Assembly: GCA_017459445.1 (NCBI GenBank)
Contig: JAFUDJ010000037.1
Location: forward strand, 1-52,946
Length of the DNA: 52,946 bases
DNA from: Prevotella sp.
GTDB lineage: Bacteria > Bacteroidota > Bacteroidia > Bacteroidales > Bacteroidaceae
Reading direction: 5' to 3'
The notes beneath the pieces are model-generated. The model had not been told where the DNA came from. It worked only from the letters and a program-made list of their open reading frames with translations, and ran no database searches. Positions 7,531 to 27,103 of the stretch are shown here, one piece after another; within the stretch, counting starts at the first letter, position 1; each line of letters starts with the position of its first letter. The position numbers and the translations under genes were made by a program.

Positions 7531-7596
7531 GTGCCCGGGGAGGGCTGCCCGTTAGAAAAAGTCAAGAATTCTCTTGGCTCTTTGCACGCTTATTCG

Positions 7597-7604: not shown

Positions 7605-7609
7605 CACCT

Positions 7610-10528: not shown

Positions 10529-10549
10529 TATTATCTCTCATTTACTTCA

Positions 10550-10557
10550 TATATTTG
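10550..10557 (+). promoter_or_regulatory. -7 box of the kinase/RapZ-C fusion gene
   Basis: TATATTTG followed by CA lies 10 nt upstream of the ATG at 10568, implying a leader of only a few nucleotides. Confidence 0.55.
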
Positions 10558-10567
10558 CACACGATTT

Positions 10568-12163: not shown

Positions 12164-12198
12164 AAGAAATATGATGATGAAGACAATGAGAATGGTGC

Positions 12199-13410: not shown

Positions 13411-13419
13411 TAGCAGTTG

Positions 13420-13427
13420 CAAAGGTA
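13420..13427 (-). promoter_or_regulatory. -7 box of the MFS gene
   Basis: On the minus strand TACCTTTG followed by CA, 9 nt before the ATG at 13410. It decides the start choice and implies an almost leaderless mRNA. Confidence 0.6.
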
Positions 13428-13477
13428 CGACTTTTAGGTGAAAAGTGAATAGCGAACAGCAAAAAATTTTTTTTCTT

Positions 13478-13893
13478 AAAAAGTGGTTCAAGCCTACACT
13501 ACTTGACTTATCATGCTTATTTTCAGTGTATTAAGTAGTGTAGGCTGCCTTCACTTTCGATGAGCAAGCCTACACAAAATCGGAAAATTAAGAATAATCA
13601 TGACATTTTTTATTTTCCTTTCCGCACACTTTTATGCCACCTCCAGCAGACTTTTATCTTGAAAAATTGCAGTAACCACCATGGTTACTGCTCGTAACTG
13701 CCATGGTTACTGCTCGTAACCGCCACGGTTACTGTCAGTAACCCCCTTTGTTACCAGGCATTTTCGCTATTTCGTCCCCTCAAAACGACCGATTAGTGTA
13801 GGCTTGCCCATAGAAAGTGTAGGTAGCCTACACTACTTAATCATCTGTAAATAAGTGTGATAAGTCAAAAAGTGTAGGCTTAAGCCACTTTTT
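13478..13893. repeat. 416-bp fold-back element with 98-bp terminal inverted repeats
   Basis: The arms 13478-13575 and 13796-13893 are inverted copies of equal length; by hand they align without gaps at 84 of 98 positions. Each arm holds inner copies of the 9-mer AGCCTACAC or its complement (13491, 13538, 13567, 13796, 13825, 13872), so each arm can itself fold. The core holds an array of 22-bp palindromic units (13672-13754) and two ACTTTTAT motifs (13628, 13650 region). No ORF is convincing inside. It could be a MITE-like non-autonomous element or a structured RNA source; I found no obvious target duplication. Confidence 0.75.
13672..13754. repeat. Array of four 22-bp palindromic units
   Basis: Units begin at 13672, 13694, 13716 and 13738, each starting GTAAC and centred on a palindrome of the type GTAACC-n-CCATGGTTAC. 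The last unit is degenerate and short. Spacing is exactly 22 bp, about two helical turns. Confidence 0.8.
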
Positions 13894-14119
13894 GATGAAA
13901 AATTTCTTAGAAGCAAAAATAACGTGCACATCTTTTGATAAAAAGCAGACAAAACTGTCAAGAAACGGAAAAAACTTAATGATACTCATGACGCATGACA
14001 CATGACACACATGACCACTTCTTACGCAAAAAGATGCACAAATTGTCGCAAATGCGCATGTTTCAGAGTAAAATGTGCAATTTTTTACACTATTTACTTT
14101 GCCAAAAGGCAAAAAATCG

Positions 14120-14127
14120 TACCTTTG
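14120..14127 (+). promoter_or_regulatory. -7 box before a small ORF
   Basis: TACCTTTG followed by CA, 8 nt before an ATG at 14136. It is the only promoter I see for the segment up to the secreted protein at 14442. The sequence between the fold-back element and this box (13894-14119) is AT-rich with short CATGAC repeats (13989-14012) and no gene. Confidence 0.5.
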
Positions 14128-14135
14128 CAACCGAA

Positions 14136-14306
14136 ATGAGCACGGAGAAGGAACATATCATCATCATTGAAATCAGCACGCCGCAGAGTAATTATGGCAT
14201 GAAGGGACAACTGGCTCTGTTCAACAATCCCATCAATGCACCTTACGCCCGAACAGCAGCAGGTGTGCACCCTCAACGCTGTTGGCACTCGTACCCGAGA
14301 CCTTAG
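14136..14306 (+). CDS. Small hypothetical protein, possibly frameshifted
   Basis: A 56-residue ORF (MSTEKEHIIIIEISTP...) begins 8 nt after a -7 box. Its first 35 codons look coding; after about 14236 it loses that character while the overlapping ORF 14236-14445 gains it. Either these are two small genes or one gene with a frameshift near 14236. Not recognised. Confidence 0.3.
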   Translation: MSTEKEHIIIIEISTPQSNYGMKGQLALFNNPINAPYARTAAGVHPQRCWHSYPRP

Positions 14307-14445
14307 AGAAAATCTCAACCCCATTGGCGGCGGCCTCTCTCATAAGAACCCACGACGTGCGGCGGCGAGCCGTCTGAAACAAAAGTCCCGCACGTTTTTC
14401 AACGAAGCAGAATATTCAAACTATAACATCATATCAAACAAATGA
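14236..14445 (+). CDS. Small hypothetical protein overlapping the next gene
   Basis: A 69-residue ORF (MHLTPEQQQVCTLN...), basic toward its C-terminus, overlaps the preceding ORF by 71 nt. Its TGA overlaps the ATG of the following secreted protein (ATGA), which would allow translational coupling. No family recognised; it may be the out-of-frame remainder of the ORF at 14136. Confidence 0.3.
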   Translation: MHLTPEQQQVCTLNAVGTRTRDLRENLNPIGGGLSHKNPRRAAASRLKQKSRTFFNEAEYSNYNIISNK

Positions 14446-15641
14446 AAAAGATTCTAATGTTGGCCGCAGTCGCCTTAATGACTGCCGTGAGCACACTGGC
14501 GCAGAGAATAGAAGTGGTGGATGCCGAGGGTAACGGCATTCCGCTGGTAAGTGTGACAACCGAGGACGGCGTGTTTGTCGGCAAGACCGACCTGAACGGC
14601 GTGCTCGCCGACGTGAAGGGCGCCCAGAAGGTGGGGCTGAGCCACGTGGCCTACAAGCCGCAACTGGTCACGGTGGCCGAACTCCCCTCCCATCAAGGGG
14701 AGGGGCAGAGGTGGGGTCCCGTCCGTCGCGTGACGATGGAGGAAGCCGACTTCGGCCTTGACGAAATCGTGGTGAAGCCCAAACCCTACATCGTCGTGGA
14801 GTACTACGTCCGTGGCTTCCGCTACATCGGCGACTCGCTGAGGGCCTACGGTGCAGGCATCATACCCGTGGCCTACGACATCAGGAACGGCTACAAGCCC
14901 AAGACGCGCAATGTGAACTCTATGGGAGTCTACGCCAACAAGGCACCAGGATGGCACTTGGCTGAAATATCGAACAAGACGAAAGAGATGTGCAAGCACA
15001 ATAAAGGCTCGATGACCGATAAATGGGTGATGACAAAGAAGGTGCAGGATACGTATGGCCTCACCGTAGCGAAGGACAGTGCAAGCCGAATGCAGAACGG
15101 AGCTCGCTCCGATTCTGCTGAGGCGCAGCCTGTGCTCGCCGAAGGCAAGGACGGAGCCAACCGCTGGCTGGTGACGAACCCGAAGGGGAAGATAGGTCAG
15201 ATTGTGCACAACGGAGGCCGGTCGTACGCCACCCTCGACGCCGGACGTATGCAGCGCTATCAGGACGAGAAGCAGGGCAACCAGAAGCTGATGAAGATGC
15301 GTGAGGAGAAGGACTATGCTTACGAGTATGCCACCATCTACCGCCTGCCCGGCGATGACGACGGCGACACCCCCGACCTGGCCCGTCTCGTGATGTCGAT
15401 GCACCACTGGGAATTCAACTCCGACAAAGGGCGCCATCGTGACATCTACTACTCCTACGTCGTCACTCACTATTATGCCGACGAGGCCGAGTTCAAGGCT
15501 CGCAGCAAGGAACTGAATCAGGGTCACCCGTACAGCAACATGACGCTCGAAGAACTGCAAGCCTACGAGCGTCAGCACAACATCCCCGCCCTCAGCGCCT
15601 CGCAACTCACGGCCATCCAGACGTTGAAGAAGCATTACTAA
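14442..15641 (+). CDS. Secreted protein with carboxypeptidase-regulatory-like domain
   Basis: This 399-residue protein starts with a signal peptide (MKKILMLAAVALMTAVSTLAQ). Residues about 22-80 resemble the beta-sandwich carboxypeptidase regulatory-like domain found at the N-terminus of many Bacteroidota envelope proteins (VVDAEGNGIPLVSV, KTDLNGVLADV, LSHVAYKP). The rest (about 110-399) is not recognised. Residues about 84-97 (SHQGEGQRWGPV region) are encoded by a GC-rich hairpin (14682-14702) resembling an intergenic repeat and look inserted. A similar but diverged domain opens the protein at 16036. Periplasmic or outer-membrane location is likely; function unknown. Confidence 0.7.
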   Translation: MKKILMLAAVALMTAVSTLAQRIEVVDAEGNGIPLVSVTTEDGVFVGKTDLNGVLADVKGAQKVGLSHVAYKPQLVTVAELPSHQGEGQRWGPVRRVTMEEADFGLDEIVVKPKPYIVVEYYVRGFRYIGDSLRAYGAGIIPVAYDIRNGYKPKTRNVNSMGVYANKAPGWHLAEISNKTKEMCKHNKGSMTDKWVMTKKVQDTYGLTVAKDSASRMQNGARSDSAEAQPVLAEGKDGANRWLVTNPKGKIGQIVHNGGRSYATLDAGRMQRYQDEKQGNQKLMKMREEKDYAYEYATIYRLPGDDDGDTPDLARLVMSMHHWEFNSDKGRHRDIYYSYVVTHYYADEAEFKARSKELNQGHPYSNMTLEELQAYERQHNIPALSASQLTAIQTLKKHY

Positions 15642-15645
15642 TATC

Positions 15646-15843
15646 ATGCGACCGCGACTACTTCACCTACGACAACCGCGAGTTCTCGGCGCAACTCACC
15701 CGACTCGGCATCACCCACGAGCCGATAGCCCCAAGCAAAGCGGTATCTACTCGCTCAACGGTACTCGCCACAACGCGATGCAGCGAGGCGTGAATATTGT
15801 GGAATTCGCTAAAATAGTTGTACTTTTGCACCGAAATTCATAA
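15646..15843 (+). pseudogene. Remnant(s) of a secreted protein gene
   Basis: Two coding-looking fragments lie in different frames. From 15647 one frame reads CDRDYFTYDNREFSAQL..., then degenerates. From about 15742 another frame reads SGIYSLNGTRHNAMQRGVNIV, which resembles the C-terminal tail of Prevotella-type secreted proteins. No start codon or signal peptide fits either piece. I read this as debris of one or two decayed genes. Confidence 0.4.
15821..15828 (+). promoter_or_regulatory. -7 box before the 64-aa ORF
   Basis: TACTTTTG followed by CA, 26 nt upstream of the ATG at 15855. It probably serves the pair 15855-16049 and 16036-17073. Confidence 0.5.
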
Positions 15844-15854
15844 CTCATAACTTT

Positions 15855-16049
15855 ATGATGCTGTTAGTAAATAGCAATGGTATGGTGCTTCTCGAAAGGG
15901 AGAAGCCCAGCACGAAAGGAGCAAACAACTCCACGCTCCATGTCCGCCGAATGTCGCAGGGCATAAAGAAGACTGTTCGTCCCGTGCTCATGAACAAGGA
16001 GGAGTTTTTCACGAAAGTCATCCGAACCACCGACGATGCCAACGTATAA
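15855..16049 (+). CDS. Small hypothetical protein
   Basis: A 64-residue basic ORF (MMLLVNSNGMVLLEREK...) with its own -7 box upstream. It overlaps the start of the next gene by 14 nt, suggesting translational coupling. No signal peptide, membrane segment or known motif is visible. It may also be only the leader region of the downstream gene. Confidence 0.35.
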   Translation: MMLLVNSNGMVLLEREKPSTKGANNSTLHVRRMSQGIKKTVRPVLMNKEEFFTKVIRTTDDANV

Positions 16050-17073
16050 GAAAGAATATCCGACGCTGGTAGAGGCCGTCATCACCGCACTGCTCGTCCT
16101 CGTCACAATGGTGGGATATGCCCAGCAGGTGATGTTGGCAGACAGCATCAGCAAGAATCCTATCGGTTATGCTACTGTCTATGATGCTGATGGAAACGTA
16201 ATAGGACGCTCTGACATGGGTGGATATATCAATCTTCAGAAAGGCTTCGAATACCACTTTTCCCACATAGGCTATGAGCCCAAGAGTCTCGTTTACGATG
16301 ATGACAGCATCGTTTTCCTGTCTCCATCGTCTTATGAATTGTCGGAAGTCAGCGTCACGGCAAAGAAGAAGAAATACTATCATTGTAAGGTGTACTTCAG
16401 GAGCATCGAGCATGTGGATTCATGCCTGAAGTATTACATGGACGGCATACGGGAATTCTATGTCGACACCAAAAGCAGGAAGTGCACCAGCGGCAATGTC
16501 GTCACGAACCGCTTCATGTCGAAGAGGCAGGACATCGCACAGAAGAAACGCAGCATGATGATGGGCGACCGGTACATGGCTCTGCCGTTTCTCGACAAGA
16601 GCACTTTGTACGAGGAAACCATCCGTGACAAAAAGAGGAATATCGAGGCGGGGACTATCTACGCTGATTCCATTGCCATAGGCAGTTGTGAGGTGTTTGC
16701 TGACAAGGACGAGATGCTTTTCTCTATCAATGCCTTGTGGCCCAAAAACGCTCTGGTGATAAATCTGTTTGGGTACACGCAGGTATTGTCGAAACACAAC
16801 AGGACGGAGCTGTATCGGTATGATGATTCCGACGCTCCCTCCGTTTTCAATCTGAAATCTTCCAACGGTTATCGGCATCTGACACTGACCCATAAAAAGG
16901 AAAATGTTGTGAGGGACATTGACGTTGAGGATATGTTCTACGTGGTCGAGTATGAATATACAGATGCGAAGGAATCGTCTTCGTCAGAATCGCTGCGGGA
17001 AGATTACGAAAAGTATTCCGAAATGTTTCCTGTGGTCGAAAGAATTAGGGAACAGTTGGAACGAGAGGAATAG
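16036..17073 (+). CDS. Secreted protein with carboxypeptidase-regulatory-like domain
   Basis: This 345-residue protein has a hydrophobic export segment (about residues 14-30, ALLVLVTMVGYAQQ) after a long n-region, so the true start may lie a little downstream. Residues about 32-110 match the regulatory-like beta-sandwich (NPIGYATVYDADGNVIG, GYINLQKGFEY, FSHIGYEPKSL, then ELSEVSVTAKKKKY, the usual end of this domain before a TonB plug). No plug or barrel follows; the rest is unrecognised. Its layout parallels the protein at 14442, though identity is low. Envelope location likely, function unknown. Confidence 0.7.
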   Translation: MPTYKKEYPTLVEAVITALLVLVTMVGYAQQVMLADSISKNPIGYATVYDADGNVIGRSDMGGYINLQKGFEYHFSHIGYEPKSLVYDDDSIVFLSPSSYELSEVSVTAKKKKYYHCKVYFRSIEHVDSCLKYYMDGIREFYVDTKSRKCTSGNVVTNRFMSKRQDIAQKKRSMMMGDRYMALPFLDKSTLYEETIRDKKRNIEAGTIYADSIAIGSCEVFADKDEMLFSINALWPKNALVINLFGYTQVLSKHNRTELYRYDDSDAPSVFNLKSSNGYRHLTLTHKKENVVRDIDVEDMFYVVEYEYTDAKESSSSESLREDYEKYSEMFPVVERIREQLEREE

Positions 17074-17114
17074 CTGACTGCATCGCGAGCGCAATCGTTG
17101 AGGTTCAGACCAAA

Positions 17115-17371
17115 TCAGTCCTTTTTCTTTGCATCCAAATGATAGGTGAAGCTGATGCCGACGTAGTGGTGGCGGAAGTCCTGCCAAGTGGATGAATGTT
17201 GATAGGCCGTCTGGTCGCTCCAGAAGCCGTCCTCGTTGTTGAGAATGTCCTCAAACTCTAAGCCGAGGCGGGCTTTGTTCTTCAGAATTTTCCACGGATG
17301 ATGTCGGCACTGGCCATTTGCACCCCCAAGACGAGGGCGAGCAGTGCGGCGATGATGGTGTTTGCTCTCAT
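17115..17371 (-). pseudogene. Remnant of an outer-membrane barrel protein
   Basis: On the minus strand an ATG at 17371 opens a signal peptide (MRANTIIAALLALVLGVQMASA) that stops after 29 codons. In another frame from about 17295 the sequence reads WKILKNKARLGLEFEDIL and ends DFRHHYVGISFTYHL-DAKKKD, typical of the last strands of an outer-membrane barrel. The two parts appear joined by a deletion with a frame change near 17290. The gene is not functional as it stands. Confidence 0.5.
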
Positions 17372-17408
17372 TATTCTTTTCTTTGTTATTTGTTCTTGCT
17401 ATTATTAT

Positions 17409-17934
17409 TTACACCTTCTCAAGAGTCTTGACGATTTCGTCATCAGGCTTAACAGCAATGAGTGAACGTTCATACAGTATCTCATCCTGCTTATCCCGCA
17501 AATCTCTAACACTCCAATGTTCTGCGATGCCCATCTGCTGATAGAACAATCTTTGTACCATCCTCAATAGTTACAAGTTCCAGAAAATGACTCCACGTCA
17601 ATGTTTGCGACAGCGTCGCAAACGTTTCCTCGTCGCTGTAATAGCGGGCCACCTTCATCATTCTTGTTACGGCAGAATATGTATAACCTTTTCCGTAGCG
17701 GGCTGTCAATCTTTGCGACAGTGTCGCAAGAATCTTGCTTCCATAGGCCGAGTACTGCTTATAGCCCATGTCCTCATTGATGTAGCGACCTATGTGCCAA
17801 AACATCATATCAGAATGTTTGTTCACATATACTACAACCTCTTGACGTGCATTGTCTATAATGTCAGTGACACCCTTATACAGACTATCACTGACTTGCT
17901 CTATTACTTTTGTATCTACAATTTCGTTTGCCAT
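17409..17934 (-). pseudogene. Frameshifted, truncated YhcG-like (DUF1016 N-terminal) gene
   Basis: From ATG 17934 the minus strand encodes MANEIVDTKVIEQVSD... with the winged-helix DUF1016 N-terminal domain of YhcG-type PD-(D/E)XK proteins (GRYINEDM, YGSKILATLSQRLTARYG, WSHFLELVTIED). At about 17548-17560 the frame breaks; the family sequence continues in another frame (LFYQQMGIAEHWSVRDLRDKQ, then YERS) and stops at 17409. The C-terminal nuclease domain is missing altogether. A -7 box lies at 17950-17957. It probably belongs to the accessory region with the Schlafen-like gene just upstream. Confidence 0.7.
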
Positions 17935-17949
17935 ATCTCTTTTCGTTCG

Positions 17950-17957
17950 CAAAGCTA
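17950..17957 (-). promoter_or_regulatory. -7 box of the YhcG-like remnant
   Basis: On the minus strand TAGCTTTG, 15 nt before the ATG at 17934, with a purine-rich AAAAGAGA stretch between that could act as a ribosome site. It sits at the border of the upstream gene's stop codon. Confidence 0.45.
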
Positions 17958-17959
17958 AA

Positions 17960-19381
17960 TTACTCTGTCTCTTCATCCACAAACTCCCAATGTCCATTTC
18001 TGGCAGAATCGACACGCTTTAAGACACCAAGAGCCTTTAGCTTGTTAATGTGCTTCTGGACTGATGTTGTCGATATTCCTATGCTGTCAGCCATTTCCTT
18101 TCTGCTGACATACCTGTTGGAATACGTCATGACGCAAACGCTTATGGTTGTTTTAGACAACCCTTTAGGCAACCTTTCAGACAACCCTTTAGGCAACCTT
18201 TCAGACAACCCTTTAGGCAACCCTTCAGACAACGGGGTTGTCTCATCGTGCAATTTGCCCACATTGTTACGCTGGAACGTTACTCTGACTCCACCCTCAA
18301 TGTCCTCAATCTTTGGCATAGGGAGTCCAGCACCCTCGAAACCCTCACGAATCTTCTTGTATCCGCGCCCCCACGACTCTATGAATCCAGCCTTGAAGAA
18401 TGCGTAGGCTATATTCTTGTTCCTTGGATGCGAAGAGTGCTTCTTTAACAAGGTCTCAGGCGTAAATCCGGAAGGCAGTCCACCCTCGTTCCAAATCTCG
18501 CAGTAGTCATCCCACACGCGCATCTGTATGGGAGCGCCCATATAGTCCTTATGCGCAATGGCGTTATAGAATATCTCGCGCAATCCATCCTCTGGCACTT
18601 CGAGTTTCTCTATTCGTTGCATGCCCTCGTAATGGATGGGCGATGTAAAGTACTTGGTCTTCAGAATGTCCATCACCCTGTCTGTCATTTGAATGATGTT
18701 ACCTTCTATGACATCCTGAGTTATCAGGTCAGCCTCGTCTTTTCTGAATCGTCCTATTTTGAACTCCACACACGTAAAATAGCACTGAGGATTCTTGGCA
18801 AAGAGCAGTAGCGCTGCGTTCTTCAACTTTCCGTCTTCACTGAGCAGGTGAAGGTTCTCTAATACGGATTGTGTCGAAGAGTTGGCTTCGTCTTCGCTGA
18901 TACGTCCTGCCTTGATGCCCTTGCGCAGGAAATAGTCTATGGCACTACGGTCCAAATCATCGATGGTGGCAAATTCATTGGTGATGTCATCCCACGAGCG
19001 CCCCATCTTCTTCAGTACGAACTGCTGCAGGGCGGGGCCGCGTAATTCCTGCATGGTACTGCCAGAACGATAGTAATACTTGCCTCGATAATTGATGGGG
19101 ATATTGCTTGGTCCCACCACCACCTCGATATAGTCAAGCCCCTCCACTTCATAGAGATTCACATCCACCACAATACCCATTGTGGTGACAATCTTATTGG
19201 GAATATCCTCCATCAGCCGGTCAACATTTTCCAGCCCAATCACCTCATGGTCGTCATTCACGCCAAAGTACATCACGGCTCCCTGCGCATTCGCGAAACC
19301 GCAAATCCACTCCAGATATTTATCGTGCCAGCTGCTCTTGTACTCAACATTCTGGCTCTCTCTTGGTTTCATCTTTGCCAT
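17960..19381 (-). CDS. Schlafen/AlbA_2-type ATP-binding protein with winged helix
   Basis: This 473-residue protein has the plan of AlbA_2 (Schlafen-like) DNA/RNA-binding proteins: the AlbA_2 domain (about 5-130; ESQNVEYKSS, WICGFANAQGAVMYFGVND), a GHKL-type ATPase-like domain (about 250-390; LREIFYNAIAHKDY, EIWNEGGLPSG, FIESWGRGYKKI) and a C-terminal winged helix (about 425-470; SRKEMADSIGISTTSVQKHI). Between the last two lies a low-complexity linker of 8-residue repeats (LSERLPKG) encoded by 24-nt DNA repeats. Family members act as regulators or occur beside defence genes; the exact role is unknown. It precedes the YhcG-like remnant by 25 nt. Confidence 0.85.
   Translation of the reverse strand: MAKMKPRESQNVEYKSSWHDKYLEWICGFANAQGAVMYFGVNDDHEVIGLENVDRLMEDIPNKIVTTMGIVVDVNLYEVEGLDYIEVVVGPSNIPINYRGKYYYRSGSTMQELRGPALQQFVLKKMGRSWDDITNEFATIDDLDRSAIDYFLRKGIKAGRISEDEANSSTQSVLENLHLLSEDGKLKNAALLLFAKNPQCYFTCVEFKIGRFRKDEADLITQDVIEGNIIQMTDRVMDILKTKYFTSPIHYEGMQRIEKLEVPEDGLREIFYNAIAHKDYMGAPIQMRVWDDYCEIWNEGGLPSGFTPETLLKKHSSHPRNKNIAYAFFKAGFIESWGRGYKKIREGFEGAGLPMPKIEDIEGGVRVTFQRNNVGKLHDETTPLSEGLPKGLSERLPKGLSERLPKGLSKTTISVCVMTYSNRYVSRKEMADSIGISTTSVQKHINKLKALGVLKRVDSARNGHWEFVDEETE
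18157..18235. repeat. 24-nt in-frame tandem repeat
   Basis: The unit starting GACAACCCTTTAGGCAACCT recurs at 24-nt spacing, three full copies plus partial ends, inside the linker of the Schlafen-like gene. Because 24 is a multiple of three, copy-number change would lengthen or shorten the linker without breaking the frame. Confidence 0.85.
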
Positions 19382-19440
19382 ATATATCTTATAACGTTTT
19401 GTTTCCTTGCTCTATTGTTTGGTGAAAAAGAATAAGGAGC

Positions 19441-19462
19441 GCTCGGCTATGCCGCTTTGCTG
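19441..19462. repeat. 22-bp repeat, left flank of the six-gene operon
   Basis: The core CTCGGCTATGCCGCTTTGCT occurs here and, inverted with two changes, at 26079-26100. The pair brackets the AT-rich operon. Short elements of this kind are dispersed in some Bacteroidota genomes, so the bracketing could be chance. Confidence 0.5.
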
Positions 19463-19490
19463 TACAAAAACCGTCTCCGTGATTCCTAAC

Positions 19491-20399
19491 TTACACTACT
19501 CTATATTTGCTAAGCATCTTCAGTATTGTGTTCTTTAGTTCTTCACGCACATTCTGTGGCTCGATAATTTCCAATTTTTCCCCATGCCACAGGAGTTGTT
19601 GATAGAAATTGTAACATGGAACAAGCCTATATTCAAAGATGCTCCATTCGGATGTAGTTTCAATTTCCTTCTGTGATTCGTGTATAGGCAAAGCTTTAAC
19701 ATATTCTACTTGTGCTCCATAAACCCTAATTCGTATCATTTCAGGCTTTTGGTCATCAGAATGGTTAATGCCAAAACATCCATCGAAATATTCTTCTGCT
19801 GTGATTTTGTTAGAAGGGAACATTTTATTATCCGTCAGTCTAATGTCCTCCATTCGTTCTAAGGCAAAAATGGAAATACCATGATGGTGATTGTCTGGCT
19901 CTGCTGCTAAGTACCATCGCTGCTCCCAGGTTCGCAGAAAATAGGGAATCAGCAACTGATGTTTTACTGTTTTGTGATTAAATGAGTAATACTCGCACTC
20001 TATGCCTTTTCCCTGGTCAATCGCCTCCAGTATTATTTGTACGTTCTCCACACCAGTTGGTGCCTCTGAAAGCATAATCTTATCACGATGTTTTAGTGCC
20101 AGTTCTGTCATTCCTTCTATATGATACGCTGATAATAGGTAATCATACAGAGAATCATCTTCGCCATAAAGAACCTTATGACGGTGCAGTTCATACTTGC
20201 CCGTTCTTTGACTATATTCAATGTAACAAGGAAAAGTCTCGTCTATATAATCTTTATACCTGAGGAAGGTTCTTGGCAGAATCTCTTCACCCTCATAGAG
20301 CGAGGAGTACTGGTAATAATCATTAATCTCTTTCAGTGTAAGTGCACCCTTGCGCTCTAACAGATTTATCAAATATAAACATTTCTTTAGTTTTGACAT
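19491..20399 (-). CDS. WYL-domain transcriptional regulator
   Basis: This 302-residue protein has an N-terminal winged helix (about 1-70; LKKCLYLINLLERKGALTL), a WYL domain (about 125-210; IECEYYSF, FLRTWEQRWYLAAEP, which contains the literal WYL) and a WCX-like C-terminal part (about 215-302). WYL proteins such as BrxR, CapW and PafBC bind DNA and sense a ligand, often single-stranded nucleic acid, and frequently control phage-defence or DNA-damage operons. Here it is the last gene of the operon, 16 nt behind the 504-aa gene. That it regulates this operon is inferred from position. Confidence 0.85.
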   Translation of the reverse strand: MSKLKKCLYLINLLERKGALTLKEINDYYQYSSLYEGEEILPRTFLRYKDYIDETFPCYIEYSQRTGKYELHRHKVLYGEDDSLYDYLLSAYHIEGMTELALKHRDKIMLSEAPTGVENVQIILEAIDQGKGIECEYYSFNHKTVKHQLLIPYFLRTWEQRWYLAAEPDNHHHGISIFALERMEDIRLTDNKMFPSNKITAEEYFDGCFGINHSDDQKPEMIRIRVYGAQVEYVKALPIHESQKEIETTSEWSIFEYRLVPCYNFYQQLLWHGEKLEIIEPQNVREELKNTILKMLSKYRVV

Positions 20400-20415
20400 T
20401 GTAGAAAATAATTAA

Positions 20416-21930
20416 TTATGATATAAGAATATAACAGATGGATGCAACTGATAAAACTGAAGCGATAATAGCAATCAACTTAAAATATTTAAGTTGTTTT
20501 TCCTGCTGATTGTACAACTCCGCTTGTTCAATCATGAAATTTTTCGTAATATTTTCGTTTTTCTTTAGTTCGTTGTTTATTGTTTCTGTCTGTTTTTGCT
20601 TAAAATTTAGGAATTGATTGCGAATCATCTCAGAATTTTCTTTTTGAGACTTCTCTAAATCATTTAATACCTTCGAAGCCTGGTTCTCGCTGTTCTTGAT
20701 AAACTCATTTTGCGTTGAAACTAGTTGTTTGGACGTTGCTAGAACATTGTCCAACTGAGAAGATATTTTCCCTTCAATGTGAGAAAGGCTCTCTTTTTGT
20801 TCATTTTCCAATTTGGAAAGTGTAGAAGAAACCTGTTGCTGTGTCTTGGTTTCAAATGCAGAATAATCTTTTATTAAAGCTTCTTGTGCCAATTTGATTT
20901 TTGCAGAAGATTCCTCGAATAACTCTTGCATGGCAGACAACTTGGTTCGTTGTTCCTCAAGTAATGCCATATTTGTTCTTTCAGATGCTTTCCTAATATG
21001 ATCAATTGCATCATCAACTTTTATTTTCATTGAATCATTGATGCTTTCAACAGATTTTGACAGCTCCTCTTTATGTCTGTTAAATTGATTCTTCAGTTTT
21101 TGGTGAACATTGTTCAAAAAATCTATTTTACCTTCAACGTCAAGCTTGAATTGTTTTAATTGCTGCTGCATTCGCTTCCTTTTTGCTTTTTCTGCCTGTG
21201 AAAACTCTGCAAGACCTTCAATGTTTTTGCCGTCTTTAGTTAGAAGATTGCTAATATCCAATTCTTTTTTGGATGATTCTTCAGAAATGTCGTAGAGATC
21301 ATTTTCAATTTTAATAATCCAAATAAGTGCATTGCAAATAGCATCAATCCAAGTATTAGTTGCTTCTATTGCAGTACCAATGTTCCTAAAAGCTATTTTG
21401 TTATTTTCATCAACTTTTTCTACGACACTCTTCAGTTCACTTTTACTGACTTTCGAATCAACGGTATCTAGCGTTTTGTTAAGCCAATCATATTTTGTGT
21501 GATATCCTATACTTTCAACAGGTGCCGACAAATCGTTGATTTTTTGCAAATTCTCGTTAAGAGTTTCTCCTGCCTTTTTTAAAGTTCCGATGAGTGGAGT
21601 AATATCACTGTCATTAGCTATTTCCCCTAACTGATTACGCCTATTTTCCTTTTCAGAAACAGGATAATTAGGAGAATCTATTTGTTTTTTCACCTCTATT
21701 CGCAAGTCGCCAATTGACGGAGTGTTAAGTATGTCTTTTATTGTTATATGGATTCCAAATCTCCTGAATATGCCTTTTTGAATCTTTTCCATCTTTTTGA
21801 CATCATCAGCACAAATTTCTTGTATGATGCTATCTTTTGTAACGTTTGAGCCAAAAAGTTCTTTCATGAGAATCAAAAAGTTCTCCACATTACACTCTGG
21901 GTATTGAGTTATGTTGGTATTATTATCCAT
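20416..21930 (-). CDS. Tail-anchored coiled-coil protein of unknown function
   Basis: Not recognised as a known family. The 504 residues fall into three parts. Residues about 14-84 form a small helical domain whose pattern (MEKIQKGIFRRFGIHITIKD, then SIGDLRIEV) resembles helices II-IV of acyl carrier proteins, but the phosphopantetheine Ser of the DSL motif is replaced (ADDV). Residues about 230-480 are a long Lys/Glu/Gln-rich coiled coil. A single C-terminal membrane segment (about 483-504, KLIAIIASVLSVASICYILI) would anchor it with the bulk in the cytosol. It lies 12 nt downstream of the 583-aa gene in the operon. A scaffold or sensor role is a guess. Confidence 0.7.
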   Translation of the reverse strand: MDNNTNITQYPECNVENFLILMKELFGSNVTKDSIIQEICADDVKKMEKIQKGIFRRFGIHITIKDILNTPSIGDLRIEVKKQIDSPNYPVSEKENRRNQLGEIANDSDITPLIGTLKKAGETLNENLQKINDLSAPVESIGYHTKYDWLNKTLDTVDSKVSKSELKSVVEKVDENNKIAFRNIGTAIEATNTWIDAICNALIWIIKIENDLYDISEESSKKELDISNLLTKDGKNIEGLAEFSQAEKAKRKRMQQQLKQFKLDVEGKIDFLNNVHQKLKNQFNRHKEELSKSVESINDSMKIKVDDAIDHIRKASERTNMALLEEQRTKLSAMQELFEESSAKIKLAQEALIKDYSAFETKTQQQVSSTLSKLENEQKESLSHIEGKISSQLDNVLATSKQLVSTQNEFIKNSENQASKVLNDLEKSQKENSEMIRNQFLNFKQKQTETINNELKKNENITKNFMIEQAELYNQQEKQLKYFKLIAIIASVLSVASICYILIS

Positions 21931-21942
21931 AGCAATTATGTA

Positions 21943-23694
21943 TTATAGTTCAAAATCTTCTTCATCGTCATCTAGTAACGTGCTTATTAAGTCCGATGAG
22001 CGATTAGCAGTTTTTTCAACATTATCTAAAATTTGGCGTGTTTCTGCTTGATTCTTTTTTGTCGCCTGACTCTTCCTCCCCATTTCTGCTATTGACTGAG
22101 CAGCAAAGTCCATAGTATTAATAACATTTTTGCCTGTCTTAACAGATGAAACTAGAGCAAGTGATGAACTTGTATATATCAATTTTGTATTCAACAAATC
22201 CATTTTTGTTTGTTGGGATGATATTTGCATCTTGGCTTTATATCGATCAAACATACATAAAACTACAGATGACATTACACAAGAAATAAACCCTGCCAAA
22301 GCGTCAGCAATAGTAGGGGCTGCAGTAGCTAATGGGGGAATAGTTGTTGTGATAAAGTCTGAAATGACTTCATTTAAGCCCATGCCTATGAAGGCTGTCA
22401 TACCAGCAGCAAGAATTTTAAGAGCTTCGTAGATTCTTTCTTCCCATGTTTTCTCTTTGTTGAATATGATTTTTAAAGCTCTAATGATAGAATTCAACAT
22501 GAGCCGAATCATTTTTGCTACATTTTTGAACGAGTGAAGGAGAAAGTCGACAATAGCATTTAAAGCTTCCATACCTATTGAGTAAACTGCATTTGCTCCA
22601 AAACTCTTCATCATGGTTTTCCAATCCTGTTTTATACGCTGTATCCAATTGCTAAAGATGCTTTTTATGCGCTCCAAAATACTATTTATTTGTTCTTTTC
22701 TCTCAAGAAACTCTACTTTAATTTCTTGCGCTAAATATACGATTAGCTGTTTTGCTAATGCAATGGCGCCACTTTTTGCGGCTCCAATAGCAGCTCTCTT
22801 TCCTCTTACACTAAATTCTTGTAGTTGTCGTTGAAGTTTAGCCTTTTTTTCCCATGTTTCATATTCTTCCTTGCTTATTTCTCCTTTAAGATAAGCGTGA
22901 ATTTTAGAAACTTGACCAGAATGTTGCTCTAATCTATGTACATCAGATGGAACTAAGAACATCCCATTTGGTCCTTCGTGAATTGTTAGCTTATTTGCCG
23001 TCCTCCACTCTTTAAATTCCGCTTTGCTTTTAAAACCAAACTCCTTATACATTTCATTGTCGAAATGATTAAAATTAGTATCTCTCATCCATTTTGCCAT
23101 GTTGTCTGGACACCCAGCCCTTTCATACATTTGTTTGTACTCTTCAGTAGAATAAGACGAAATAGAAGGCCCCAACCGATACGACTCTAATCCTGATAAA
23201 GACTCGTAATTATTTGATTCATTTGTCTTGTAATTTTTATCATGTTTGTCCACCGTTTTTACTCTGTTTCTATATTCTGTTTCATATTGAGATAACCGTT
23301 CCCTACCATCTTCTGACATCTTAGAATTATCTTTTGCTGCATCTTTTGAATACGGTGAGTAACGAGCCTCTTTCATGGCTCTATATTGTCTCTTCTCATT
23401 TTCTTCAGGATTCGCCGAAGTGTTAGCATATCTGATCTCTTGCTGATCATTTTCTCTCATTGAATGAGGATTCTTTTGATAGTCTCCAATTTCTGTAATA
23501 TCAATAAAGGTGTCAATATAGTTCATCGATCCTTTTATGGACGCATCTATAAGGTCTGACAACAAATCTTTATCCTGGGGAATGTTGTTGGATAGTTCAG
23601 CAACTTCTTTCAACATTTGTTCATCTTCTACTGAGAGAAGAAATTCCATTTGATCTAAATCATTATATAACTTATTCTCCATATATCGCTTCAC
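21943..23694 (-). CDS. 583-aa membrane-associated protein with degenerate HNH-like motif
   Basis: No confident family. Residues 1-200 are hydrophilic. Residues about 205-285 contain a His-Me-finger-like stretch: TIHEGPNGMFLVPSDVHRLE followed by QHSGQ. It recalls the motif of HNH toxin nucleases (WHH...M-LVP---H----H-GG), with H239, H253 and H258 kept but the second His of WHH replaced by Glu. From about 295 to 520 there are amphipathic and hydrophobic helices, with likely membrane segments near 435-490 (ILAAGMTAFIGMGL, ALAGFISCVMSSVVLCMF). The acidic C-terminus ends DDDEEDFEL. This may be an effector acting on DNA or the membrane, or a structural protein. It has its own -7 box at 23737-23744. 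Start may be residue 5. Confidence 0.7.
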   Translation of the reverse strand: MKRYMENKLYNDLDQMEFLLSVEDEQMLKEVAELSNNIPQDKDLLSDLIDASIKGSMNYIDTFIDITEIGDYQKNPHSMRENDQQEIRYANTSANPEENEKRQYRAMKEARYSPYSKDAAKDNSKMSEDGRERLSQYETEYRNRVKTVDKHDKNYKTNESNNYESLSGLESYRLGPSISSYSTEEYKQMYERAGCPDNMAKWMRDTNFNHFDNEMYKEFGFKSKAEFKEWRTANKLTIHEGPNGMFLVPSDVHRLEQHSGQVSKIHAYLKGEISKEEYETWEKKAKLQRQLQEFSVRGKRAAIGAAKSGAIALAKQLIVYLAQEIKVEFLERKEQINSILERIKSIFSNWIQRIKQDWKTMMKSFGANAVYSIGMEALNAIVDFLLHSFKNVAKMIRLMLNSIIRALKIIFNKEKTWEERIYEALKILAAGMTAFIGMGLNEVISDFITTTIPPLATAAPTIADALAGFISCVMSSVVLCMFDRYKAKMQISSQQTKMDLLNTKLIYTSSSLALVSSVKTGKNVINTMDFAAQSIAEMGRKSQATKKNQAETRQILDNVEKTANRSSDLISTLLDDDEEDFEL

Positions 23695-23736
23695 TTATTC
23701 TCTTTAATTGATAGTTATGTTTTTACTATATCGACA

Positions 23737-23744
23737 CAAAGTTA
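23737..23744 (-). promoter_or_regulatory. Internal -7 box in the six-gene operon
   Basis: On the minus strand TAACTTTG, 42 nt upstream of the 583-aa gene, in the only sizeable gap of the operon (23695-23826). It could transcribe the 583-aa, 504-aa and WYL genes separately from the upstream three. Confidence 0.5.
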
Positions 23745-23826
23745 TATATTTATTTTGAAATTATTAGTATTTTACTTGCATTTTTTTAGTATTATTTTAT
23801 ACTCGTGCCATCTCTTATTCGGAAAA

Positions 23827-24201
23827 TTAGATGACGAAGGATGTCTTGATGCTATTCAGCTGACGCCGTTCATATGGTGAGAAAAGCATATGGTATTGCT
23901 TATATAGTTCCTTTTCAAACTTTTTGAAATCAATATCTACAAAGGCAGGATTGCTTCCGATTTTTGGCGGACGTCCGTCACAACAGTCGCATAATAGCTG
24001 AAACAGTTGTTTGCCTAGTTCCTTTTCATGTTGCTCTCTGTCCAACATAGCCTTTCGGTGCTCTTCTGAAATATTCTTCTCGATATATTGCATTAGACGA
24101 AATAGACGATTGCTGGCAAAAAATCGTTCAACGTCAATATTGATACCATAGTCATAGCTGAATATACGCTTCAACTTCTCATAGTCAGTTCCATCTATCA
24201 A
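23827..24201 (-). CDS. 124-aa protein of unknown function
   Basis: Not recognised. A small, mostly helical cytosolic protein without signal peptide or membrane segment. Residues about 4-44 (DYEKLKRIFSYDYGINIDVE, then FRLMQYIEKNI) resemble the second half of an acyl carrier protein, as does the N-terminus of the 504-aa protein in the same operon; again no DSL serine is present. Two cysteines (CDCC) and a conserved-looking RPPKIGSNP loop follow. Its start lies 4 nt behind the M48 peptidase stop, so the two are tightly coupled. Confidence 0.65.
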   Translation of the reverse strand: MIDGTDYEKLKRIFSYDYGINIDVERFFASNRLFRLMQYIEKNISEEHRKAMLDREQHEKELGKQLFQLLCDCCDGRPPKIGSNPAFVDIDFKKFEKELYKQYHMLFSPYERRQLNSIKTSFVI

Positions 24202-24205
24202 TTTA

Positions 24206-24985
24206 TTAGCTAGTAAATAATTTCCTGTATTGCCATGAGTCCTTCCAGCGGTCTATCTCATAGGCACGTTCACACATCTGGGGATGGCTATTGAATGCTA
24301 TGCGACAATTCTGCTGAATGCGGTTCCACCAAGAATCATTCTCAAAACGATGATACTCGCGAGCCTGTTCTACTAATTGATAGGGGCTGCCTTGTATTTC
24401 TGACAATCCCGTGGTCAACTTTAACATGGCTGTTTGGAATGTGCGTTCGCCTACTACCACAGCAGAGCATCGATCTGCTGAGAGTTCACTCTTACGACTC
24501 CAGTATTGCATGGCCATCAAGATGGGGCCAAGCGTAGAATATGAGATTACTTGCATCAAAAGCCCAAGTTCCTCAATCGTTCTAAGCAATGTGTTATAGA
24601 GAGTATGCTTGCATAGAATATGTCCGCATTCGTGGGCGATGATGCTGCTTACCTCGTCAATGTTTAGTTTCTCCACAAGTGAACTGCTAAGAGCAACAAA
24701 CGTATGGGTTTCACCATAGGTGTAGGCATTCATTACAGGGTCGTTATAGATGAACAACTCAGGTTCCTTGATACCAACCTTGCGCACCACTTTTTTAAAA
24801 GCAGCACATAATGATGGATAGTTTTGGGCATTAACCTTCACCATCATACCTAGGTTTTCACCTCGAAACATCTGTTCATAACCATATTCCATCGTGGTGC
24901 GAATAAAGGCATCGAAGCCTTTGGTTTTCCGAAGCATCTGTAGTGCCTTGGCATCTTCAGGATGCATGATGTCGCTTGCTTTCAT
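24206..24985 (-). CDS. M48-family (HtpX/Ste24-like) metallopeptidase
   Basis: A 259-residue zinc peptidase. The catalytic motif IIAHECGHILCKH gives HExxH at residues 118-122, and the third ligand fits SELSADR (E167) about 45 residues later, as in M48 enzymes. A hydrophobic stretch between them (about 135-160, LGLLMQVISYSTLGPILMAM) may be a membrane or re-entrant helix. M48 proteases usually act in membrane protein quality control or on partner proteins. Here the close coupling (4-nt gaps on both sides) to a YaaW-like protein and a 124-aa protein suggests a dedicated partner or substrate. The target is unknown. Confidence 0.85.
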   Translation of the reverse strand: MKASDIMHPEDAKALQMLRKTKGFDAFIRTTMEYGYEQMFRGENLGMMVKVNAQNYPSLCAAFKKVVRKVGIKEPELFIYNDPVMNAYTYGETHTFVALSSSLVEKLNIDEVSSIIAHECGHILCKHTLYNTLLRTIEELGLLMQVISYSTLGPILMAMQYWSRKSELSADRCSAVVVGERTFQTAMLKLTTGLSEIQGSPYQLVEQAREYHRFENDSWWNRIQQNCRIAFNSHPQMCERAYEIDRWKDSWQYRKLFTS

Positions 24986-24989
24986 GGGG

Positions 24990-25727
24990 CTATAGCTTTT
25001 GAGTTATTAATGCCGTTTGACGAAAACGCATGGAAGCAACCATGATAACTGCTGGTATCATGACTCGATAGGCAGGTGAAGCTATATCACTTATAGTCCA
25101 TCCTGCTAATGCAGTCCATCCTATTAGTCCTGCAGCAATGCTCAAATATCGTCCAACGGTGCTCATACCCATCATTGTAATCCATCGACCAAGTAGCAAA
25201 TTGGCAGTTCGCACCGTTACATAGTAAATCATCTCTGAGAGCAAATAGGAGTTTCTGCGAATGGCAAATAAGATAGCACTAACCAACATCTGATGGTTAA
25301 GACGCTTGTGTGGAATACCTGCCTTATCAGCAATAGCCCTCAATTCCTTGTCAGATAGCTTTGTGGTTGTCATTTCACAAATAGTTGTCAACAACTCATG
25401 TTCCATCGTCTTGGTATCGTCACCGATATTTACTTTGACATTCATCCTTTTGCAAACTCTGCGCACTATGGTTTCGTAACTGTCTGCTTCACCCTTTCGA
25501 CAGAATGTCTTAACAGTATTACTACCAAACCTACGCAATTCTTCACCAATTTCTGTTGTCATCAGATTCATTCTTTCTGGATAACAGTTGATGTAAGCAT
25601 CTGAATTAGTCAATTGTTCACTTAATCGAACTTCACCTTTTTGGTTATAGGTGAGAATGTCGCAAAGTGTTCGAAGGTCATCATTGCTACACGCTGCCAG
25701 GAACATTAAATCTTTGTCTTGTTTCAT
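24990..25727 (-). CDS. YaaW-like UPF0174 family protein (DUF3944)
   Basis: The 245-residue protein resembles E. coli YaaW and other UPF0174 proteins: N-terminal DUF3944-like start (KDLMFLAACSNDDLRTLCDI, then LTYNQKGEVRLSE), the EIGEELRRFGSNTV segment, a central helical region, and a C-terminal pair of hydrophobic helices ending AYRVMIPAVIMVASMRFRQ (YaaW has a near-identical AYRVTIPAVLQIA). Length is close to that of YaaW (about 237). The biochemical function of the family is not established. It is the first gene of the operon, preceded by a -7 box at 25759-25766, with a 4-nt gap to the peptidase gene. Confidence 0.8.
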   Translation of the reverse strand: MKQDKDLMFLAACSNDDLRTLCDILTYNQKGEVRLSEQLTNSDAYINCYPERMNLMTTEIGEELRRFGSNTVKTFCRKGEADSYETIVRRVCKRMNVKVNIGDDTKTMEHELLTTICEMTTTKLSDKELRAIADKAGIPHKRLNHQMLVSAILFAIRRNSYLLSEMIYYVTVRTANLLLGRWITMMGMSTVGRYLSIAAGLIGWTALAGWTISDIASPAYRVMIPAVIMVASMRFRQTALITQKL

Positions 25728-25758
25728 AACTTTTACACTTTTAAATCGTTTTCGGTTG

Positions 25759-25766
25759 CAAAGTTA
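25759..25766 (-). promoter_or_regulatory. -7 box of the six-gene operon
   Basis: On the minus strand TAACTTTG followed by CA, 31 nt before the start of the YaaW-like gene. A TTTTTG lies further upstream but at a short spacing. The rest of 25767-26250 is AT-rich and holds no gene I can support, apart from the flank repeat at 26079-26100. Confidence 0.55.
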
Positions 25767-26078
25767 TAATTAGAGACAGACAAAAAGTGTCCGACCTAAT
25801 TAATATTTTGCTTTTTAATATAACAGCACAACAGTTCCTGACACACTATTGTGCTCCTATGTTTAGGTTGTCTAAATATCGCCTATGGAGTGTCTGGATA
25901 ATCTTTTGGGGATTGTTCTAAGTCGATTTGTATAAAATTAGGCGTTTCGTGTGCAAATTTATCAAATTATTCGCAAAGCAACAAACTTATTGGCATTTTT
26001 GTTGCATAATTACCTAATATATACCCAAGAAATCCACTTGTGGGGGTAGCCTAATTCGAGACTAATTTCGGGTTCTTC

Positions 26079-26100
26079 GAGCGAAGCGGCAAAGCCGAGT
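26079..26100. repeat. 22-bp repeat, right flank of the six-gene operon
   Basis: The complement contains ACTCGGCTTTGCCGCTTCGC, matching 19441-19462 in inverted orientation with two internal differences. See the left-flank copy. Confidence 0.5.
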
Positions 26101-26250
26101 CCGATTTGGAAACCTAACTCCTTCACCAATCCTCCCAATTTTGTGTTATTCCCATTTTCGCACGTTCTTGTTCTTCTCCGTTTTGCCTTTATTTTACGGT
26201 CATTCTGCGTTAATTCTCCAAAATCCCTCGTTTGTTACAACCTTTTTTCG

Positions 26251-26258
26251 TAACTTTG
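26251..26258 (+). promoter_or_regulatory. Upstream -7 box of the nucleotidyltransferase gene
   Basis: TAACTTTG, the first of two such boxes (the second is at 26338-26345). A transcript from here would carry a 28-codon ORF at 26268-26354. Confidence 0.45.
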
Positions 26259-26267
26259 TCATCTTCG

Positions 26268-26354
26268 ATGACGAACTTACTCCGTCTCGGAAATAAAAAC
26301 AATTCACGATTTGTTTTGTATTTCGCTCGACTTTTCGTAACTTTGCACACATGA
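26268..26354 (+). CDS. Possible 28-residue leader peptide
   Basis: An ORF MTNLLRLGNKNNSRF... of 28 codons starts 9 nt after the box at 26251-26258 and its TGA overlaps the ATG of the nucleotidyltransferase (ATGA). Too short to judge by sequence; its last codons include the downstream promoter box, so conservation could be due to that. Confidence 0.2.
   Translation: MTNLLRLGNKNNSRFVLYFARLFVTLHT
26338..26345 (+). promoter_or_regulatory. -7 box directly before the nucleotidyltransferase gene
   Basis: TAACTTTG followed by CA, 5 nt before the ATG at 26351; this implies a leaderless mRNA. Confidence 0.6.
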
Positions 26355-27103
26355 AACAGGCAATGATACTGGCTGCGGGGCTTGGCACAAGGCTCAAGCC
26401 TCTGACGGACACCATGCCCAAGGCATTGGTACCGGTGAACGGAACTCCGCTGTTAGATATTAATATCCGCAAGTTGATGGCTGCCGGTTACGACCGCTTC
26501 ATCGTCAACGTACACCATTTTGCTCAGCAGATTATCGACTATGTCAGCAGGCAGGACTATGCTCCGCTGGTCCATTTCAGTGACGAGACGGAAGAACTGC
26601 TGGAGACTGGTGGCGGATTGAAGAAGGCTCGGCAGTTGTTTCATGACGACCAGCCGATACTCATCCATAATGTCGATATACTGGACAATGTCGACTACCA
26701 GTGGCTCTCTCGCCAGCATCAGGCCGACGAAGATGCCGTGCTGCTGGTAAGCCGGCGTCAGACGAAGCGCTATCTGCTTTTCGACAACGCCATGCGGCTG
26801 ATGGGGTGGAAGAATATTGAGACGGGCGAAGTGAAGAGTCCATACGAGTATGTTCGGCGTACAGGTCTTTCGCAGCATGGTGAGCCTCTGAATATGTTTG
26901 CATTCTCGGGCATCCATTCCTTCTCGCCGCGCCTGTTCCAGCTGATGGAGCGCTTCCCCGAACGTTTCCCTATCATCGACTTCTACCTCTCGACCTGCCA
27001 CCGCACCCGTATCGTCGGCATGGTGAAGGACGACTTGCGCGTGCTTGACGTCGGCAAGCTCGATACCCTGGCCGAGGCAGAACGGTTTCTTAGTGAATTA
27101 TAA
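26351..27103 (+). CDS. Sugar-phosphate nucleotidyltransferase, MurU-like
   Basis: The 250-residue protein opens with the nucleotidyltransferase signature MILAAGLGTRLKPLTDTMPK (residues 5-24) and has the metal-binding aspartate in HNVDILDN (about 110-117). Overall length and pattern fit MurNAc-1-phosphate uridylyltransferase (MurU) or a glucose-1-phosphate type enzyme; MurU would turn MurNAc-1-P plus UTP into UDP-MurNAc in cell-wall recycling. MurU works with the kinase AmgK, and an AmgK-like kinase fused to RapZ-C lies at 10568-12163. The substrate is inferred. guaA follows after 23 nt, probably in the same transcript. Confidence 0.85.
   Translation: MKQAMILAAGLGTRLKPLTDTMPKALVPVNGTPLLDINIRKLMAAGYDRFIVNVHHFAQQIIDYVSRQDYAPLVHFSDETEELLETGGGLKKARQLFHDDQPILIHNVDILDNVDYQWLSRQHQADEDAVLLVSRRQTKRYLLFDNAMRLMGWKNIETGEVKSPYEYVRRTGLSQHGEPLNMFAFSGIHSFSPRLFQLMERFPERFPIIDFYLSTCHRTRIVGMVKDDLRVLDVGKLDTLAEAERFLSEL

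Follow-up and report, generated by a model that had tools for sequence, protein, structure and literature searches.

An AT-rich operon of six genes

The stretch of DNA analysed here (the window) is contig JAFUDJ010000037.1, 52,946 nucleotides (nt) in length, from the Prevotella sp. assembly GCA_017459445.1, which amounts to 1.97 Mb and is 55% complete. Our subject is an operon on its minus strand, between positions 19,491 and 25,727, in which three genes found together in many relatives appear to form a fixed frame around a cassette of three others. Read from upstream to downstream, the six open reading frames (ORFs) encode proteins of 245, 259, 124, 583, 504 and 302 amino acids (aa) and are separated by gaps of 4, 4, 132, 12 and 16 nt. 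The GC-content of the operon is 0.365, compared to 0.580 in the flanks (sd 0.033; 1-kb windows). A preliminary description of this DNA had drawn attention to the six ORFs, to gaps mostly of 4–16 nt and to the AT-rich composition, and in all three respects it was accurate.

Domain matches also uphold its assignment of three genes as YaaW-like, M48 and WYL, which are those that we term the frame. The first gene (24,990 to 25,727) belongs to the JukA family, with a match to the PADLOC JukA profile at 1e-41 over residues 2–237 of 245 and to Pfam DUF3944 at 9.7e-14; we propose that its product is a sensor. The second (24,206 to 24,985) encodes an M48 metallopeptidase (PF01435, 2.8e-21; 76.6 bits for a cut-off of 20.3) and the last (19,491 to 20,399) a regulator with WYL (3.4e-10; 40.2 bits, cut-off 21.8) and WCX domains (6e-9; 36.6 bits, cut-off 23.9). 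Between them lies the cassette (20,416 to 24,201), consisting of the genes for the 124-aa protein (23,827 to 24,201, with a TTG start), the 583-aa protein (21,943 to 23,694, although translation may begin at an ATG 12 nt in) and the 504-aa protein (20,416 to 21,930).

One kind of M48 peptidase is found beside JukA

A search with an M48 alignment retrieved 32 loci from named genomes, making 33 with the window (L-numbers denote loci or sequence regions, G-numbers genomes; L054 and L055 share an assembly). In all 33 the gene preceding M48 is JukA, at a distance of less than 60 nt in 32 and of 100 nt in L054, where the JukA ORF is short (181 aa). The HECGH motif and the third ligand, E167, are invariant in the M48 alignment, and the active site (HECGH plus the glutamate of a SELSADR-type motif) is intact in 32 of the 33 loci, the ORF of L081 being shortened to 147 aa.

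This adjacency is partly favoured by the method, because the M48 patterns were built from five M48s already beside JukA. As a control, 301 genomes of the family were surveyed from the M48 side. All five high-scoring matches (494–506 bits) adjoin JukA, whereas no JukA match (E 1e-3) was found in 18 regions holding 19 of the 20 lower-scoring M48s (107–240 bits). Some of these regions are short upstream (487 nt in L096, 849 nt in L105, 1.9 kb in L092 and 1.8 kb in L093); the same JukA profile detects the JukA genes of seven control loci. The lower-scoring proteins constitute a second M48 type of 271–335 aa, often 292, encoded in other operons of the same family (L089–L106) and not linked to JukA; in 7 of the 18 regions the gene stands beside one for an 84–86-aa protein, usually together with one for a protein of 165–174 aa.

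Surveyed from the JukA side, 8 of the 301 genomes carry JukA, five of them with an M48 of the frame type and six with a nearby WYL gene. The two surveys overlap: L069, L071, L072 and L076 are contigs of G058, G063, G101 and G182, respectively. In a tree of 47 JukA-family proteins a single branch (support 97/95; 98% of bootstrap trees) separates the 33 that adjoin M48 from the 14 others, and the closest JukAs are from Prevotellaceae. Protein distances of JukA and M48 are correlated across 32 loci (Spearman 0.73; L081 left out), as are those of JukA and WYL (0.43) and of M48 and WYL (0.47; both 24 loci); for no pair did any of 500 permutations reach a value as high, and a comparison of the three coefficients is only indicative, because the locus sets differ. 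Comparison between loci thus shows that JukA precedes this kind of M48 in every locus found.

An HtpX-like protease together with membrane proteins could instead point to an envelope-stress or protein-quality operon with no part in defence. The sole relative of the M48 protein in a profile search of solved structures, at E 0.001, is the HtpX homologue 3cqb (1.6e-7). Assignment as an HtpX equivalog was nevertheless rejected, the best NCBIfam score (57.1 bits) being far under the cut-off of 245; the protein is without a strong transmembrane segment (highest 19-residue hydropathy 1.49), JukA occurs sporadically in the family, and the cargo of related loci is defence-like (see below). We regard this explanation as highly improbable. 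JukA itself gave one chance match among Protein Data Bank (PDB) sequences, and searches of viral contigs with the M48 and 583-aa alignments gave nothing useful. In L029 a JukA gene without M48 or WYL was observed near a match to the prokaryotic viperins (pVip, 1.3e-15; 6,986–8,320 and 9,741–10,685).

The WYL regulator and a candidate operator

In a six-frame search, 26 of the 33 loci proved to have a WYL gene on the strand of the operon, 16 with the gene after M48 and 10 with it before JukA; that of L060, which sits opposite a longer antisense ORF, was recovered in this way. Of the seven loci without one, six (L056, L057, L059, L069, L070 and L075) reach a contig end within about 6.2 kb after the M48 start, and only L055 lacks the gene with no contig end nearby. 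By this comparison the operon usually has a WYL gene at one of its ends. Such genes are scarce in the family (15 matches across eight genomes), and that of the operon is the sole match in its own incomplete genome.

The stretch directly upstream of JukA is conserved in relatives. In the window it contains, at 25,759 to 25,766 on the minus strand, the sequence TAACTTTG, a -7 element of the Bacteroidetes promoter consensus, which we take as the main promoter. Of the 23 loci examined, 21 have TAnnTTTG in the 110 nt preceding JukA, 20 of them at the aligned place, compared to 0.075 expected per 110 nt. An exact match to the full consensus (25,985–25,954) lies further upstream, outside the conserved block. 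The internal promoter of the preliminary description has a counterpart in a second TAACTTTG (23,744–23,737, minus strand) within the 132-nt gap before the 583-aa gene, but an exact -33 TTTG is lacking there and the site is a possible promoter only.

Over the -33 region of the main promoter, judged by spacing, lies the inverted repeat CGGACA-N5-TGTCYG (25,777 to 25,793, minus strand). Within 130 nt upstream of JukA it occurs without mismatch in 24 of the 33 loci and with at most one in 28; of 5,000 stretches of 130 nt drawn at random from these loci, without exclusion of the real sites, 63 contain it with 0–1 mismatch. A pattern one letter shorter gave 41 plus-strand matches in the 33 loci, compared to 0.1 expected under a first-order Markov model, an excess that is inflated by near-copies among the loci. 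The repeat follows the type of the regulator. It is perfect in all 19 loci whose WYL protein scores at least 450 bits, and has 3–5 mismatches in the four with scores of 282–313 bits (L072, L077, L078 and L081); L076 (391 bits) has one mismatch, L079 (407 bits) two, and L054, where a contig end cuts the WYL gene, none. Related loci are not independent events in this comparison. On the basis of position and of co-variation with the WYL type we read the repeat as a putative operator: the co-variation supports the view that WYL binds it and would control the operon. Additional copies about 16 nt after the WYL stop and before further genes (L064, 10,431; L065, 15,810; L066, 15,066; L067, 7,779) suggest a small regulon.

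The constancy of JukA, M48 and WYL, and an operator that tracks the WYL type, would also accord with M48 as an inducing protease, acting on WYL, or on JukA so as to relieve repression, by analogy with CapH/CapP of the cyclic-oligonucleotide-based anti-phage signalling system (CBASS). WYL–JukA pairs exist without this M48, however, in L033, L034 and a Citrobacter plasmid, and the correlation of JukA with M48 (0.73) exceeds that of M48 with WYL (0.47), over partly different locus sets. We consider such a role doubtful.

The stretch between M48 and WYL varies as a block

The DNA of the window was compared to that of twelve relatives by blastn (E 1e-8). The JukA–M48 stretch aligns at least partly in all twelve, from about 25,800 (from 25,731 in L057 and 25,734 in L070) to 24,218–24,228, that is, to 12–22 nt short of the M48 end; L055, L070, L074 and L075 show an internal break. 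Between 24,218 and about 20,414 there is no DNA similarity to any of the twelve. It resumes at the first WYL base, 20,399, in L053, L058, L074, L080 and L082, and at 20,414 in L051, and in these six extends to about 19,500. With L052, in which WYL is upstream and a shorter stretch aligns, the WYL side is represented in 7 of the 12; L055, L056, L057, L070 and L075 gave no WYL block. Short extra blocks upstream of the operon (26,084–26,349) align in L051, L053 and L056.

The same pattern is apparent within a clade of closely related loci (L060–L067). Here identity is 82–97% for JukA (median 90), 84–96% for M48 and 93–96% for WYL (seven loci, the WYL of L060 having been found separately), while the intervening genes vary. 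L060 and L062 share about 95% identity over 4.4 kb on the M48 side (ending at 10,777 in both) and over 6.5 kb from WYL on; between these flanks are 3.0 kb and 3.5 kb, respectively, of unrelated cargo: relatives of PDC-M09A and PDC-M09B in L060 and, in L062, a second JukA alongside genes for a BnzB-like and a tail-anchored protein. Comparison thus shows two similar flanks and, from M48 to WYL, an intervening set of genes that varies as a unit. We infer that recombination within the frame genes, acting as homology arms, exchanges the blocks.

That the six genes form one co-inherited unit was accordingly rejected, since the 583-aa protein is rarely matched and the cassette has no DNA similarity in relatives. 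The co-occurrence that the preliminary description had proposed to look for is real for YaaW, M48 and WYL, which travel together, but does not extend to the genes for the 583-aa and 504-aa proteins; among the 32 other loci, four contain a relative of the 124-aa gene. The whole region is itself variable. In L084 and L087 the genes at 10,568–12,163 and 26,351–27,103 of the window directly adjoin, so that 14.2 kb (12,164 to 26,350) are missing at the same site in these two relatives; in L085, L086 and L088 only genes of the right-hand flank are recognisable. None of the operon genes is present in these five stretches (L084–L088).

Frame and cassette might also be independent defence genes that share a hot spot and do not cooperate, and modules of the HNH-membrane and M09A types do occur elsewhere without JukA. 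Such an assemblage sits poorly with gaps of 4–16 nt (save the one of 132 nt), with two break points that recur in many loci and with one conserved promoter and repeat ahead of the frame. We think it unlikely.

The cassette of the window

The 583-aa protein combines a putative nuclease of HNH/ENDO VII type in its N-terminal part with a membrane domain. Its one full-length relative (34% identity; L002/L011) is in another genome of the family; of 300 family genomes, its own aside, nine gave a match, the other eight over parts of the C-terminal half, and a profile of the two sequences found none but its own among 295 order-level genomes. The two proteins share the block LTIHEGPxGMxLVPxDVHxxxxHxG and the core H-x13-H-x4-H (H239, H253 and H258). 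The HNH-like core comprises residues 207–260 (22,915 to 23,076), and the membrane domain about residues 300–490 (22,225 to 22,797), with hydropathy peaks at 427–445 and 455–474. The earlier label of HNH-like membrane protein is therefore borne out as to a conserved core and a membrane domain, but the match to the WHH family remains below the Pfam cut-off. A search of PDB sequences with the core gave no match, and neither tblastn of the protein in plasmids and phages nor single-sequence scans of viral and genome contigs gave anything useful.

Residues 274–569 match PDC-M40B (1.2e-13), and the C-terminal 280 residues are common to two other groups of proteins (hhalign probabilities 99.1 and 98.3, from alignments of two or three sequences), from which the N-termini differ (0.5 and 0.1). 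The N-termini of those two groups look HNH-like as well, with DH..N motifs. As C-termini are common and N-termini differ, nuclease types appear to have been swapped on one membrane domain. In L070 a gene of this HNH-membrane kind (11,794–13,630) lies in two overlapping frames and looks broken in that assembly.

The description of the 504-aa protein as a tail-anchored coiled coil stands, the protein having one C-terminal hydrophobic segment (residues 480–504). Proteins of the same build are present in L011, L062, L064, L066 and L070, with sequence similarity only to that of L011 (1.4e-4). Their partners are the full-length 583-aa relative in L011, HNH-membrane effectors in L064 and L070 and BnzB in L066 (both by our own profiles), and a weak BnzB match in L062 (8.9e-8). 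A match to ZorA3 (2.3e-6, profile positions 323–557 of 780) covers the coiled-coil part; Zorya was rejected, as the match begins at position 323 and the MotA-type membrane domain of ZorA is lacking. The relatives of the 124-aa protein, in L053, L055, L057 and L058, are 198–219 aa long. Its link to AbiA (2.7e-4) was rejected as probably due to chance, not being repeated by a relative.

The cassette bears on a further proposal of the preliminary description, that proteolysis by M48 switches on the 583-aa protein; in such a model the nuclease would be released from its membrane anchor. The two genes share an operon, and a cut could separate the nuclease-like from the membrane part. M48 is retained, though, where unrelated proteins replace the 583-aa protein, and the nuclease-membrane family is without a nearby M48 match in the six plasmid and phage contexts opened. 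Because M48 is kept while its supposed substrate is replaced, we do not favour this model and judge it very unlikely.

Other loci carry other candidate effectors

The loci contain 154 cargo ORFs in all, the window's five included. Sixty larger cargo proteins, some of them outside the operon limits used for that list, were picked by hand and scanned. Among the PADLOC matches listed, which cover 25 of 29 families, PDC-M09A accounts for 12, BnzB for 10, PDC-M09B for six, PDC-M40B for three, weak LeoBC for seven and HerA-type ATPases for two; Pfam recognised Exo_endo_phos in two cargo proteins and a DNA/RNA non-specific endonuclease in one. By our own profiles at least one classified effector is present in 24 of the 33 loci, and seven loci have second JukA genes.

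Several of the alternative cassettes, like that of the window, combine a nuclease-like part with a membrane segment. All eight members of family c6 keep AAED, GxD and QxKY followed by glycine-rich hydrophobic segments, which we read as a putative PD-(D/E)XK nuclease on a membrane anchor; the one member scanned had no Pfam match. Relatives of PDC-M09B keep E, D and QxKF in four of four and are likewise probably nuclease-like. A small hydrophobic protein, c5 (76–125 aa, 10 copies), was noted in eight loci, mostly soon after M48 (L056, 11,384–11,620, and relatives).

Relatives beyond Bacteroidales

The Citrobacter plasmid has the order WYL, JukA (PADLOC, 2.4e-58) and a 528-aa HNH-membrane protein (PDC-M40B, 6.2e-62). 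A blastn search for this operon in 5,426 Escherichia coli genomes did not find it; eleven share 373 nt inside WYL only, a stretch annotated there as integrase. The HNH-membrane effector family itself is represented in 70 plasmid records and in seven records (four phages) of Aeromonas jumbo phages. Six of its contexts were opened (L107 and L111–L115; L111 and L115 are alike), two with an adjacent PDC-M09A-like gene and two with an annotated WYL gene or fragment.

One of these contexts is Aeromonas phage LAh10 (L114, 3,952–6,548), in which the effector gene is annotated as a cobalamin adenosyltransferase and adjoins a PDC-M09A-like gene annotated as a chemotaxis protein; these jumbo phages are about 260 kb in size. 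The E. coli plasmid p321-pO111, which has phage-like genes, carries an isolated JukA-family gene next to one for a helix-turn-helix regulator (L108, 4,992–5,744).

Comparison with known defence systems

Bunzi, to which BnzB belongs, is an experimentally tested system, and WYL-regulated defence systems include CapW and BrxR. Like the latter, the window has a WYL regulator in a defence-like operon and an inverted repeat over the promoter; unlike them, the regulator gene here is often operon-terminal and forms one border of the cassette. Bunzi (BnzB) and PDC-M09 are cargo of the same JukA–M48 frame in relatives but are not in the window's own cassette, and BnzB had no PADLOC match in the window operon. 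The likeness to PDC-M40 is confined to the C-terminal half of the 583-aa protein, whose N-terminal part is of another type; stronger PDC-M40B matches are those of the L015/L076 relative (1.5e-37) and of the 528-aa protein of Citrobacter (6e-62).

The review PMC13282480 describes JukA as the sensor of Juk (jumbo phage killer), a system of JukA and JukB, and pairs JukA with diverse effectors. The window shares with Juk a gene of the sensor family, and its relatives the variety of effectors; it differs in the addition of M48 and WYL, in a nuclease-like membrane effector and in an effector block that varies between relatives. The earlier statement that no named system has this set of genes thus needs amending, in that JukA belongs to the named Juk system as described in PMC13282480. 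No title among the literature matches listed concerns a JukA–M48 operon, which does not establish its absence from print.

A proposed sensor frame with replaceable effectors

On the basis of these comparisons we interpret the locus as a WYL-regulated, JukA-based anti-phage operon in which a fixed frame encloses an exchangeable cassette of effectors, and give this reading a probability of roughly 0.62. It has the appearance of an anti-phage operon of gut and rumen Bacteroidales, with a sensor, a protease and a regulator fixed around replaceable membrane weapons. The preliminary description had likened the operon to phage-defence systems, and in that respect is supported by the JukA membership, by the defence-like cargo (BnzB and PDC families) found in place of the middle genes and by a sporadic distribution, the surrounding stretch being missing in two relatives.

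Several observations weigh against this interpretation. The pore-forming partner JukB was not found, with no match at E 1 in the nine window proteins scanned. The WHH match (PF14414, cut-off 25.1 bits) reaches 13.4 bits (E 0.064) in the window and 21.4 (2.1e-4) in the L011 relative. Cargo that fits the class models is lacking in 9 of the 33 loci, or in seven after L061 and L062 later matched BnzB. The repeat occurs once in the window's own genome (25,793–25,777), which proves little because a backward control is about as common elsewhere: in 12 other genomes there were 12 matches to the repeat, counting both strands, and 11 to the control. The 12 matches are at nine places in six genomes, of which five belong to JukA/WYL loci (G063, G251, two in G113 and one in G182) and four are elsewhere (two in G182, one in G206 and one in G983); no exact copy is present in G058 or G101, both of them genomes with JukA–M48. 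Finally, only one of the six effector contexts has JukA; the effector is therefore not strictly dependent on it, which counts against a tight one-sensor model.

Under our reading JukA would detect an early product or membrane structure of the infecting phage, as suggested by its family, and trigger the cassette, which would deliver the damage. Here the weapon would probably be a membrane-tethered nuclease: the 583-aa protein as a membrane-inserted HNH-type enzyme, with the 504-aa coiled-coil protein as partner and the 124-aa protein as accessory, may cut phage DNA near the membrane. WYL would restrain expression at the repeat. Since the cassette changes and M48 stays, the likeliest places to look for the partner of M48 are the constant parts and the phage; most likely M48 would act on or with JukA rather than on the variable effector, for example by JukA-gated cleavage of JukA itself, of a phage protein or of a part common to all loci.

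We also advance, at somewhat less than even odds, a more specific version. In this 'hot-swap' operon a JukA–M48 pair that was joined once, together with the WYL/operator chassis, would receive at least five kinds of cassette, swapped at fixed borders by homologous recombination, with targets among which would be the very large phages that infect Prevotella and Bacteroides. A single sensor and a single switch could then be re-armed with unrelated weapons. If the broader interpretation is right, a single JukA sensor can drive many unrelated effectors from one chassis, a protease is a constant partner of one JukA lineage, and a candidate operator is provided; JukA–M48 on one side and WYL on the other would become a search handle for new anti-phage effectors of Bacteroidales.

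Genes downstream of the operon

After WYL the window contains two genes that overlap by 56 nt (17,506–19,381), one of Schlafen/AlbA type and one for a DUF1016_N protein. Part of this region (17,960–17,731) matches DNA that follows WYL in L058 at 82% identity.

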